Below the pieces are notes generated by a model. It was not told the DNA's origin. It did not search any database and saw nothing but the letters and a program-made list of their open reading frames with translations. DNA of 10,278 nucleotides from Candidatus Auribacterota bacterium (GTDB lineage Bacteria > Auribacterota > JAFGBW01). Of the stretch, positions 3,601 through 7,568 are shown piece by piece. The stretch's first letter is position 1. The number at the start of each line of letters is the position of its first letter. The stretch is from NCBI GenBank assembly GCA_016932965.1, contig JAFGBW010000132.1, positions 1 to 10,278 of the forward strand, given 5' to 3'. Made by a program: the position numbers and the translations under genes.

Positions 3601-4701
3601 ATGAACAGGAAACTTCTTATTTTAATTTTCTTCTTTTATACCGGGAGAGAATGGACACTAGACGCTCATTCTCCTGTTCATAAAAGATTGATTGAAACTT
3701 CTTTGGCCCCGGTTTCTTCTTTTTCAGGAAATGAAGCCCTCCAAAACAGCCGGATTGAAAGAGCCTGGAAACGTTTTGTAAACCGGAAAACTGATCCGGT
3801 CCTCTTGATGAGGAATGTGATAGAAAATCGCCTTCAGCTTATAAGGAAAGAGCCTGATCAACCCAACCGTACTATTACGTCCATAATAAAATTACGTTTA
3901 GAATTCATTAAGAAACGTGAAACTCATATGTTGGCCCAGGCGGATCAAGGAGCAATTCCTTTGGATCTATCAGCCTATAAAATGGCGTTCTATGAACAAT
4001 TTTTTACGTCCTTTTTACGTTCTTTCTATGATCAGGCCATGCAGAGAATTCAGGACCCATTAAAGGAGACAATCTCATTTGAGAATATTCTCGGGGATAT
4101 TGAAGGCATTGGGTCTGCTTTTTATTTCTATACCCCGGCCTGGGAACTGGATGACATATATTATCATGGCTGGCCCAGGAAACTTGATTTTAATACGGTA
4201 GTAACAGACCCCCAGTCAGGTCAGAGTTATAGCTACGCAGAACTGTGGGATCAGCTTGTTCAGAAACTGATCCAGTCCGGACAAAAAGTTGACTGGATAC
4301 CGCAGGTCATGCCTGATCAGATAATCAGCGGCAGAAGCACTCTGTTGCAGAGGATCCTGGATGGTGATTTCACGACACATTCCGAGAGAATGAAATGGAA
4401 TTGGGGATTGGAGGGGTCAATCGAACGGGGGTATAATAAGCTTATGTATTTTTGTGTTTTCCCCCAGCAAAGGGAACCTCCCGGCATACCAGCTCTGCCC
4501 GCGGTTGAACCTTGTGCTTATCTCGTTCCGGATGCCGAAGACAAACAGGTTATCTTCAATGCCATTAGCCAGGCCGTGGAGAGAGAACTCATCACCCGGG
4601 AAGAAGGAATCGAGCTGAGGAAAAAAGTTTTCACTTATCTGGAATACCTTTACCCCCGCACCAGGGTTCCGAATTTAATTTTAATTCGAGGCAGTTCTTA
4701 G
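3601..4701 (+). CDS. Hypothetical protein, probably exported (366 aa)
   Basis: I do not recognise this protein. The start ATG 3601 gives MNRK followed by a short hydrophobic run (residues 5-13, LLILIFFFY) and then TGREWTLDAHS, which looks like a short Sec signal peptide with possible cleavage after Ala22, though the hydrophobic core is brief. There is no lipobox Cys. The middle is helix-rich and charged (50-160). The region 165-290 is rich in Trp and Tyr (FYFYTPAWELDDIYYHGW, WIPQV, WNWG), typical of a folded, ligand- or surface-binding domain. Only two Cys occur (285 and 305), close enough for a disulfide. A Pro-rich stretch (292-308) precedes a final helical segment. No clear Shine-Dalgarno lies just before ATG (AAGG is 20 nt away), so the exact start is uncertain. 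It is monocistronic, with its own candidate promoter and a strong hairpin behind it. Confidence 0.8.
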   Translation: MNRKLLILIFFFYTGREWTLDAHSPVHKRLIETSLAPVSSFSGNEALQNSRIERAWKRFVNRKTDPVLLMRNVIENRLQLIRKEPDQPNRTITSIIKLRLEFIKKRETHMLAQADQGAIPLDLSAYKMAFYEQFFTSFLRSFYDQAMQRIQDPLKETISFENILGDIEGIGSAFYFYTPAWELDDIYYHGWPRKLDFNTVVTDPQSGQSYSYAELWDQLVQKLIQSGQKVDWIPQVMPDQIISGRSTLLQRILDGDFTTHSERMKWNWGLEGSIERGYNKLMYFCVFPQQREPPGIPALPAVEPCAYLVPDAEDKQVIFNAISQAVERELITREEGIELRKKVFTYLEYLYPRTRVPNLILIRGSS

Positions 4702-4748: not shown

Positions 4749-4789
4749 TCGCCTTTCATTATTCTTGTTTGAAGAAAAATGAAAGGCGA
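4749..4789. repeat. Long inverted repeat A, between convergent genes
   Basis: Arms of 18 bp (4749-4766 and 4772-4789) pair with a single A-A mismatch around a 5-nt GTTTG loop. The base is CGCC/GGCG and the apex is TTCTT/AAGAA. It lies 47 nt after the stop of the 366-aa gene and 25 nt from repeat B. It could serve as a bidirectional transcription end for the two convergent genes, but no clean T tract follows on either strand. Confidence 0.85.
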
Positions 4790-4814
4790 GTATGTTTTCT
4801 TTAAAAAGGAAGTG

Positions 4815-4857
4815 TGAAGGGAAACTTTTCTTTTTAAAAAAGAAAAGTTTCCCTTCA
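4815..4857. repeat. Long perfect palindrome B, overlapping the stop codon of the FAD oxidoreductase
   Basis: Perfect 21-bp arms (4815-4835 and 4837-4857) around a single central base; in RNA the loop would be about 5 nt. The TGA stop of the oxidoreductase (4855-4857, minus strand) forms the end of one arm. The stem has GGGAAAC/GTTTCCC near the base and a run of A/T pairs at the apex. Such a structure at a stop codon would give a very stable mRNA 3' end or a terminator, although the T run is inside the stem rather than after it. Confidence 0.9.
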
Positions 4858-6303
4858 TGAAGCATTCTTTTTCAATAATTTATCCATTTCATTACTGGTG
4901 ATGATACCGTAATTGATGGCGCCGAGCCAGCCTGACATGATGATGCCGACGGATCCCGTATGGAAAAGCCCTGCGATCTGGAAGGACATGTCTGTGCTGA
5001 CTTTCAGTCCTTCAAACTTGGTCCCAAAAGACGCCCCCTGCCAGTGGAGGGTGTATCGCTCAAACGTTTTCGGAGTTGCGGCCTCGAGATGACAGACCCG
5101 CCGACGGATATCAGGGATGAGTTTCTCCAGAGACAATAGAGTGTTTTCAATCAGCGTGTTTTTTTCTGCTTTGTAATCGGATGGAGTCAGACCCTCCCAG
5201 TCCCGGTAATTCGCATTCGTTGAAGATACAATAAAATATCGGGGAAGTCTGCCGGGTCTGATGGACGGGTAATACACGGAAAAAGTCCGGCTTTTTGTGT
5301 GCATTTCCAGCAAAGACTCTGATGTGAATTCGCCAGATTCGGAATAAAAAATCAAATCCCCTATAAAAGGAATATCCGAATCCTTCTTTATGGCAATGTA
5401 AACCTGGCAGCTTGAATTATTGATCCTGACTTTCCCCGCCTGTTCAAGATAATCTTCTTTAAAATGTTCCTGCCCGGCCAGATGATAAATAGTTCCTAGA
5501 AGACTGCCGTTGGAACAAACGGAACGGCAAGACACCAGGCATCTGCCTCCGTTTTTTCCTGATCGCGAAGAAGATAAATACACGCCCTCTATCCGTCCCT
5601 GTTTGATCAGCAATTTTTCTGCCCTGAAACGGGGCAAAATGTCCACTTTGTTTTTAAGGAGCTCATCCGTCATGAGACGGATAAGAAGGTCTGTCCCGCC
5701 CTCAAATGTATAAACCCCCTGGTTCATGAAATTGGAGAAAACAATGCCGTATGTGATGGCAGGCTCATCAAGCGTGGAACCGTTGGCATAGGTAATGGGT
5801 TCCAAAAGAAAACGCGCCACATCGTTTCTTCCGGGAAAAAAACGGTCAAACAGTTCTTTTATCTTAAGAGAATGATTATCGTAAAAATTCATTGCACGAG
5901 CGGTGGTAAAAAATCTTTCGACGGTGTCAGGATCAACTCTGAAATGCTCCACAAGAATCCGGGTGAAATTTTCCCGGTCATAAGTCGTCTCCAGCTGAAA
6001 CTGGGGATTGATAAAACGGATGTGCTTCAGCCTGATGATCCGGTCTGCAATCTCCCTGTTCCAGTATTTCCGGCAGGTTTTGATCATTCCATGGGGAAAA
6101 CCGTGAAGCGAAACGTCAAAGATATGATCCCCTCTTTTAAACCACGCGGCCAAACCTCCCAGCTGATGATGCTGCTCCACTAAAAGAACGCGATACCCGA
6201 TAGACCCCAGCTTATTGGCGCAGGTCAAACCCCCAAGCCCGCTGCCAATAACCACCACGTCGTAAAAGGGTTTGACTTGCTGAAAATCTGTTAAGATAGA
6301 CAT
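4855..6303 (-). CDS. FAD-dependent oxidoreductase of the phytoene desaturase (CrtI/RetSat) superfamily
   Basis: At 482 aa it has the amine-oxidase/CrtI architecture. An N-terminal dinucleotide-binding motif VVIGSGLGG (17-25) is followed by the ribose-binding Glu43 in LLVEQ and a GGLAA segment (49-53). A central GGTDLLIRLM stretch is typical of CrtI-like proteins. The C-terminal FAD motif GLFHTGSVGIIMSGWLGAINYG lies at about 445-466. No membrane segment or signal peptide is visible. Family members desaturate, saturate or isomerise polyprenoids or related lipids, but no carotenoid gene is nearby, so the substrate is unknown. ATG 6303 is the only sensible start (in-frame TAA just upstream), yet no Shine-Dalgarno precedes it; instead three strong hairpins fill the leader. 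It is on the same strand as thrC and hom, 203 nt after thrC. The stop lies inside palindrome B. Confidence 0.9.
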   Translation of the reverse strand: MSILTDFQQVKPFYDVVVIGSGLGGLTCANKLGSIGYRVLLVEQHHQLGGLAAWFKRGDHIFDVSLHGFPHGMIKTCRKYWNREIADRIIRLKHIRFINPQFQLETTYDRENFTRILVEHFRVDPDTVERFFTTARAMNFYDNHSLKIKELFDRFFPGRNDVARFLLEPITYANGSTLDEPAITYGIVFSNFMNQGVYTFEGGTDLLIRLMTDELLKNKVDILPRFRAEKLLIKQGRIEGVYLSSSRSGKNGGRCLVSCRSVCSNGSLLGTIYHLAGQEHFKEDYLEQAGKVRINNSSCQVYIAIKKDSDIPFIGDLIFYSESGEFTSESLLEMHTKSRTFSVYYPSIRPGRLPRYFIVSSTNANYRDWEGLTPSDYKAEKNTLIENTLLSLEKLIPDIRRRVCHLEAATPKTFERYTLHWQGASFGTKFEGLKVSTDMSFQIAGLFHTGSVGIIMSGWLGAINYGIITSNEMDKLLKKNAS

Positions 6304-6321
6304 GGAGAATTAGATGTTATT

Positions 6322-6364
6322 TGCAGGAAACCCATTCTTTGTATCAAAGAATGGGTTTCCTGCA
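6322..6364. repeat. Long perfect inverted repeat H1, upstream of the FAD oxidoreductase
   Basis: Perfect 20-bp arms (6322-6341 and 6345-6364) around a TAT centre. The base is TGCAGGAAACCC and the apex is TTCTTTG/CAAAGAA. It ends 18 nt before the oxidoreductase start codon, on the leader side of its mRNA. Confidence 0.92.
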
Positions 6365-6384
6365 CCTTCCGAAGAAACTGATGC

Positions 6385-6421
6385 GCGGTATGATTTTCTT
6401 GTTTCAAGAAAATCATACCGC
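6385..6421. repeat. Long perfect inverted repeat H2, tandem with H1 and H3
   Basis: Perfect 17-bp arms (6385-6401 and 6405-6421) around a TTT loop, with a GCGG/CCGC base and a TTCTTG/CAAGAA apex. It sits 20 nt from H1 and 23 nt from H3. Its apex is nearly the same as that of repeat A (CTTGTTTCAAG against CTTGTTTGAAG). Confidence 0.92.
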
Positions 6422-6444
6422 CAATTAAAAATGTTTGGAAAAGG

Positions 6445-6480
6445 CGCGGAAAAACCTTTATTCATAAAGGTTTTTCCGCG
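6445..6480. repeat. Long perfect inverted repeat H3, nearest thrC
   Basis: Perfect 17-bp arms (6445-6461 and 6464-6480) around a 2-nt centre; in RNA the loop would be TTCA. The base is CGCGG/CCGCG and the inner stem is AAAAACCTTTA. It begins 26 nt after the thrC stop codon, so it could also end or protect the thrC transcript. Confidence 0.92.
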
Positions 6481-6506: not shown

Positions 6507-7568
6507 TCACAGCCCCAATTGACTGATGATGGCTTCGAGATTGGCGTCAATGACAATGGGTTTGGCGGAAACATCGATAGCCCGCTCCGGGTCCTTGAGA
6601 CCGTGACCGGTGAGGATACAGACAACGGTTTTCTTTTCACCTTTTTGAAAATAGCCGGCCTTTGCCTTTTTGATGACCCCAGCGACGGAAGCCGCTGAAG
6701 CGGGTTCGCAAAACACGCCTTCTAACGAGGCGAGCATTTGATAAGCCTCTATGATTTCCTCATCTGTCACGCTGTCGATCAAGCCGTGGGAATCTTTGGC
6801 CGCCTGTTCCGCACTTTTCCAGGAGGCAGGATTGCCGATTTTGATGGCGGTTGCGATAGTATGGGGATCGGCCACGGGTTTTCCTAAAACAATGGGCGCA
6901 GCACCCGCAGCCTGAAAACCGATCATTTTCGGCAGGGAAGAAATTTTTTTATCATTGAAGTAATCCAGATAACCTGCCCAGTAAGCCGTGATGTTTCCGG
7001 CGTTACCCACCGGAATAGCGTGATAATCAGGCGCTTTTTTCAGGACATCGCAGATTTCAAATGCACCGGATTTCTGTCCTTCTATACGGAAGGGATTGAG
7101 GGAATTGACAAGGGTCACCGGATATTTTTCCGTGATTTGGAGGACAAATTTCAGGGCGTCGTCAAAATTCCCCCGGATAGCAAGGATATGGGCCCCATGC
7201 ATGGCTGCCTGGGCCAGTTTCCCCAATGCGATGGAATTATGAGGGACCAGAACAAAACTTTTCATTCCGCTCCTGGCGGCATAGGCCGCAGCAGATGCCG
7301 AAGTGTTGCCGGTGGAAGCGCACATCACTGCTTTGGCCCCGGCCTCTACAGCCTTGGAAATCGCCATGGTCATACCTCGGTCCTTAAAAGATCCGGTCGG
7401 GTTCATGCCTTCATATTTTAAATAAATATCCAGATCCGGATGAATTTCACGGCTCAATGTTGTTGCCGGGAGAAGCGGAGTATTGCCTTCATAAAGAGTG
7501 ATGACAGGGGTCTTTTTGGTAACGGACAGGTATTTCTTATATTGTCTGATCACGCCTTCCCAGCTCAT
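6507..7568 (-). CDS. thrC: Threonine synthase
   Basis: This PLP enzyme converts O-phosphohomoserine to threonine and phosphate, the last step of threonine synthesis in the cytoplasm. At 353 aa it matches the short, Bacillus/Mycobacterium-like form. The PLP lysine is Lys62 in GSFKDRGM, the Asn/Ser loop is STGNTSAS (85-92), the phosphate-binding loop is PVGNAGNITA (186-195), and LTGHGLKDP (319-327) supplies the pyridine-ring contact. The start is well set: AAGGA lies about 7 nt before ATG 7568. It follows hom on the same strand but 288 nt away, so it may have its own promoter. No homoserine kinase is beside it. A 7-bp GC-rich hairpin lies in its leader and three long hairpins lie behind it. Confidence 0.96.
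   Translation of the reverse strand: MSWEGVIRQYKKYLSVTKKTPVITLYEGNTPLLPATTLSREIHPDLDIYLKYEGMNPTGSFKDRGMTMAISKAVEAGAKAVMCASTGNTSASAAAYAARSGMKSFVLVPHNSIALGKLAQAAMHGAHILAIRGNFDDALKFVLQITEKYPVTLVNSLNPFRIEGQKSGAFEICDVLKKAPDYHAIPVGNAGNITAYWAGYLDYFNDKKISSLPKMIGFQAAGAAPIVLGKPVADPHTIATAIKIGNPASWKSAEQAAKDSHGLIDSVTDEEIIEAYQMLASLEGVFCEPASAASVAGVIKKAKAGYFQKGEKKTVVCILTGHGLKDPERAIDVSAKPIVIDANLEAIISQLGL

Follow-up and report, generated by a model that had tools for sequence, protein, structure and literature searches.

Hairpins around an oxidoreductase gene

The window analysed here is the whole 10,278-nucleotide stretch of contig JAFGBW010000132.1 from a Candidatus Auribacterota bacterium (assembly GCA_016932965.1), in which a gene for a FAD-dependent oxidoreductase is bracketed by five long hairpins, H1 to H5 (Table 1). 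The gene on the far side of H3 to H5 probably codes for a threonine synthase, and is adjoined by a homoserine dehydrogenase gene. Convergent with the oxidoreductase lies a 366-aa open reading frame (3601-4701) with no match in Pfam or NCBIfam. No counterpart of the oxidoreductase was found at an E-value of 1e-40 in 43 other genomes of the phylum, and a single scan of the genome collection yielded just one relative, 58% identical, in a Puniceicoccales MAG from another phylum, suggesting that the gene was probably acquired laterally. Upstream of this relative there is a multi-hairpin repeat of ~105 nt (L081:2794-2897 of the MAG), of which the 0.9 Mb genome has about 40 copies, 75-92% identical.

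Table 1. Genes, hairpins and modules in the window (HpL and HpR as defined in the text)
Feature	Position	Strand	Structure or sequence	Assignment
A module	4749-4857	-		H1, linker and H2
H1 hairpin	4749-4789	-	18 bp arms, one mismatch, 5-nt centre	HpR of A module
A-module linker	4790-4814	-	minus strand CACTTCCTTTTTAAAGAAAACATAC...	conserved among A copies
H2 hairpin	4815-4857	-	21 bp perfect, 1-nt centre	HpL of A module
FAD-dependent oxidoreductase gene	4855-6303	-	distant CrtI/CrtD-type profile matches	bracketed by modules
D module	6322-6421	+		H3, linker and H4
H3 hairpin	6322-6364	+	20 bp perfect, 3-nt centre	HpL of D module
D-module linker	6365-6384	+
B module	6385-6480	-		H4, linker and H5
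H4 hairpin	6385-6421	.	17 bp perfect, 3-nt centre	HpR, common to D module (plus strand) and B module (minus strand)
B-module linker	6422-6444	-	minus strand CCTTTTCCAAACATTTTTAATT...
H5 hairpin	6445-6480	-	17 bp perfect, 2-nt centre	HpL of B module
PLP-dependent enzyme (PALP) gene	6507-7568	-		upstream gene of the H3-H5 gap

The initial annotation had described three tandem hairpins in front of the gene, with perfect arms of 17-20 bp and centres of 2-3 nt, and two behind it, one with a single mismatch, and all five are present as described; the spacers, given there as 18-26 nt, measure 20-25 nt. H3 is positioned 18 nt upstream of the start codon of the oxidoreductase, H5 starts 26 nt past the stop codon of the PLP-dependent enzyme gene, and the oxidoreductase gene itself stops at the TGA in the first bases of H2 (4857-4855, minus strand). 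The three hairpin pairs have RNA folding z-scores of -10.2 to -10.9, and an Rfam scan of the window at the gathering threshold returned only one tRNA. The expectation that such repeats do not arise by chance was also confirmed, with eight hairpins of the same grade in 215 kb of the real genome and none in matched Markov sequences. Nothing comparable exists in any other intergenic region of the window, again as first described, and 14 such hairpins were counted in 446 kb of the genome, in contigs mostly picked regardless of hairpins. Since they are this rare genome-wide, five in one window constitute a local cluster.

A family of two-hairpin modules

The five hairpins belong to a dispersed intergenic repeat and are not a device of the oxidoreductase gene. 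They make up three copies of a polar module of ~100 nt, in which the conserved hairpin HpL is joined through 20-27 nt of linker to HpR, a hairpin that varies more. The sequences of HpL, better conserved than those of HpR, are GAAGGGAAAC..., GCGGAAAAACC..., GCGGGAAAAAC... and GAAGGGAACCC..., and the linker begins as a pyrimidine tract and becomes A-rich (CTTCCTTTCAAAAGAAAAC; CCTTTTCCAAACACTTTTA; CCCTTTTCAAAAAACTTT; CTTCCCTCCCAAGAAA). There are at least four subfamilies (A, B, C and D), and a TGCACGGAAAGGTTTTTTCC-type hairpin, found several times on one contig (L033:12044-12105, L159, L166), possibly represents an extra one. The arms had been noted to differ in sequence; they are not one-off sequences, however, and fall into these subfamilies, which recur across the genome.

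From the own genome (3.14 Mb in 300 contigs, 92.6% complete), both intergenic regions of the window retrieved many other copies, which match most of the query at 73-89% identity, and these sequence searches returned no near-identical copies, the best reaching ~89%. Two covariance models, one from the C and one from the A alignment, gave 74 and 59 matches, respectively, some of them being the same hairpins on the opposite strand; once merged, they correspond to about 81 module places in 69 regions of the 3.1 Mb genome. Direct reading covered 1.12 Mb, roughly one third of the genome, some of it in contigs picked for holding copies. The ~81 places support the palindromic repeat family put forward in the initial annotation, where many copies at gene ends were to speak for a repeat family or for terminators, and hairpins of equal quality do not stand behind most genes, the modules being limited to those ~69 regions. 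Applied to the 43 other phylum genomes, two of which share the same order, the covariance models gave no match; for one same-order genome the 338 kb read contain some long hairpins, with other sequences. The linker patterns matched five times in viral contigs, with no hairpins at those places, and these matches were taken as chance.

Placement relative to genes and upkeep of the stems

With genes called as simple longest open reading frames, the starts of which are longest-ORF guesses, 42 of 46 modules have their HpL at most 45 nt from a gene boundary, where random placement leads to an expectation of 19.5 and to a maximum of 29 in 2000 simulations. The two hairpins are not equivalent in this respect, as the boundary is near HpL only in 34 modules and near HpR only in a single one (sign test 2e-9). 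On the HpL side, stop codons account for 30 of these boundaries and start codons for 12, and the initial TGA of HpL serves as the gene's stop codon in the window and also in three further copies (L025, L030, L131). Convergent gaps are enriched over co-directional ones (p 0.006), and divergent gaps are depleted (p 0.024). Close neighbour modules face each other head-to-head in 13 of 15 cases, co-directional gaps included, and the facing pairs combine different subfamilies.

The genes adjoined by modules number dozens and are unrelated to each other. Judging the translations by eye, several of them are housekeeping genes (DnaK, TypA, PlsY, TlyA and a XerC/D-like recombinase). Two composites in a row occur at L149:2794-4090, with a 208-aa open reading frame between them, and at L030:3735-5262, where a gene for a XerC/D-like tyrosine recombinase takes this place.

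The stems are almost perfectly paired while their sequence varies between copies. Changes on both sides of a pair were seen in 17 of 38 pairs of the A alignment and in 11 of 28 pairs of the C alignment, values that none of 500 shuffles reached; MAFFT aligned the copies without regard to structure, but as the copies are related these counts do not represent independent events. Slid structures score far below the real pairing, and two-sided differences between copies are more than three times as frequent as expected if the sides changed independently. Among about 1500 stem pairs, G-U was found 13 times and A-C 11 times, with 7 versus 8 and 8 versus 11 in a second comparison. G-U should be tolerated if only one RNA strand were under constraint, and the lack of a G-U excess therefore indicates that the structure is seemingly maintained at the DNA level or through both strands.

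In four copies (L030, L051, L156, L157) HpR has been swapped for a different perfect or near-perfect hairpin, and three of these replacements are unmatched in the rest of the 1.12 Mb read, the fourth having a weak match. According to published work, perfect stems can both arise and be corrected through template switching (PMC8794818). It is possible, at odds that we place clearly below even, that HpR is a structural slot refillable by other perfect palindromes (unique hairpins of up to about 30 bp), and that these swaps and the paired changes, which lack a G-U excess, would form a natural record of hairpins being created and renewed by template switching, with selection acting from either strand.

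Relation to known repeats and possible role

REP elements are found mostly downstream of coding regions, in convergent and co-directional gaps, and often as facing pairs (PMC3733652). The modules share with REP/BIME that they are short dispersed intergenic palindromes, present in the same gene contexts and in facing pairs (PMC3733652), but they have two dissimilar hairpins per unit and a conserved linker, and no Y1/RAYT transposase was found in the genome (PF01797, no match at 92.6% completeness, with five control genomes positive). The SLS families of Petrillo, Cozzuto, Di Nocera and Paolella, which include NEMIS, ERIC and YPAL, are intergenic repeats of ~50-300 bp with a common secondary structure (PMC2267715), and this broad class describes the modules well, which exist as many dispersed, sequence-sharing intergenic copies with a shared structure supported by covariation. 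What distinguishes them from the SLS families is the presence of four related subfamilies, the turnover of stems by paired changes and the fact that one hairpin is strongly gene-facing. The modules fit the broad stem-loop repeat class and look like the REP/BIME type by position. The family itself was not found in the literature, where our searches met only general REP and stem-loop work.

Some more specific assignments were also considered. Within the modules or their 8-nt flanks, GTAG occurs in 6 of 39 cases (5.4 expected) and CGTC in 2 of 39 (15 expected), and with this missing tag enrichment and no Y1 transposase found in the 92.6% complete genome, the modules do not fit the GTAG/CGTC-tagged REP super-families. 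TnpB (PF07282), like PF01797, has no match in the genome; the result for PF01797 speaks against a REPIN/RAYT system, within the completeness of the genome given above, and the two together against an IS200/IS605-derived palindromic element. Integron attC sites were set aside by reasoning, as the sites are scattered and no cassette array was seen.

We consider, with a probability of about 0.6, that the modules are apparently lineage-specific, REP/BIME-like stem-loop repeats with a role at the 3' end of RNA, and that their stems are kept by template switching and/or by selection on both strands. A role at the 3' end is the most likely one in view of the position after stop codons, the preference for convergent gaps and the very stable first stem. 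Transcription from a gene would enter HpL at the stop codon or no more than about 35 nt after it, and the very stable HpL stem, followed by the pyrimidine tract and the second stem, would end the message or protect its 3' end, whereas facing pairs would separate neighbouring transcription units in both directions. The simplest account of the near-perfect arms would be that one arm is copied from the other by template switching within the hairpin, to which selection for structure, working from either strand, perhaps adds, and the copies probably spread through past transposition or duplication.

The 12 HpL beside start codons are not explained by a 3'-end role, and leave room for the modules being a non-autonomous, MITE/REPIN-like element with no host function, the unit of which would be the head-to-head composite of ~250-330 nt with HpL at both ends, surviving only in intergenic regions, where insertion harms little. 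Like REPINs and MITEs the modules are small, dispersed, non-coding and often in inverted pairs; their copies adjoin unrelated genes, HpL is outermost in the head-to-head pairs, also in co-directional gaps, and the lack of matches in the other genomes of the phylum points the same way. However, the modules are mostly single, and some have the next gene 15-50 nt past HpR, which leaves no room for a partner, while the sequences of HpL and HpR differ and the facing pairs mix subfamilies. A best identity of about 89% in the searches argues against recent activity, and neither a Y1 transposase nor TnpB was found in the genome; among the genes between far-apart facing modules (L156, L157) no obvious transposase was recognized by eye. 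We regard such a selfish origin as rather unlikely.

That the hairpins are the ordinary intrinsic terminators of the organism, alike only through a shared sequence style, is improbable. As in an intrinsic (Rho-independent) terminator, a stable hairpin follows soon after the stop codon and is enriched between convergent genes, but the modules also have a second hairpin, and linkers and second hairpins are common to copies over ~100 nt, which implies common descent. In addition, the modules are confined to few regions, and canonical sites with a stem plus T-run, of other sequence, were found at 17 of 256 gene ends. In place of a proper T-run, HpL is followed by a pyrimidine-rich tract (CTTTTC a few bases on in B and C, CTTCCTTT in A and CCCTCC in D), so intrinsic termination could be weak; two hairpins of the window pass a lax rule of 5 T in 8, and terminator-like sites are no commoner in the window than in shuffles. 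The shared descent of whole modules largely contradicts their being ordinary terminators, though a part in ending transcription may still fall to them.

An oxidoreductase-specific cassette or cis-acting system, as the initial annotation had also proposed, would agree with the bracketing of a gene that looks laterally acquired and with the repeat hairpin upstream of its Puniceicoccales relative, but is extremely improbable, and an exclusive link to the gene is refuted, because modules adjoin dozens of other gene boundaries, no counterpart of the gene was found in the 43 phylum genomes, no support for cassette remnants was obtained, and the Puniceicoccales repeat is dissimilar by eye and constitutes a family of that genome.

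Seen as REP/BIME-like stem-loop repeats, the modules add an untagged REP-like family, for which no RAYT was found, with an unusually clear polarity towards genes, in a genome for which the collection has no close relatives, the nearest being from the same order. Template switching has already been proposed for the origin and upkeep of perfect hairpins, and the about 80 copies in one genome form a compact data set for studying how such hairpins, long and perfect, come about and persist in that state.
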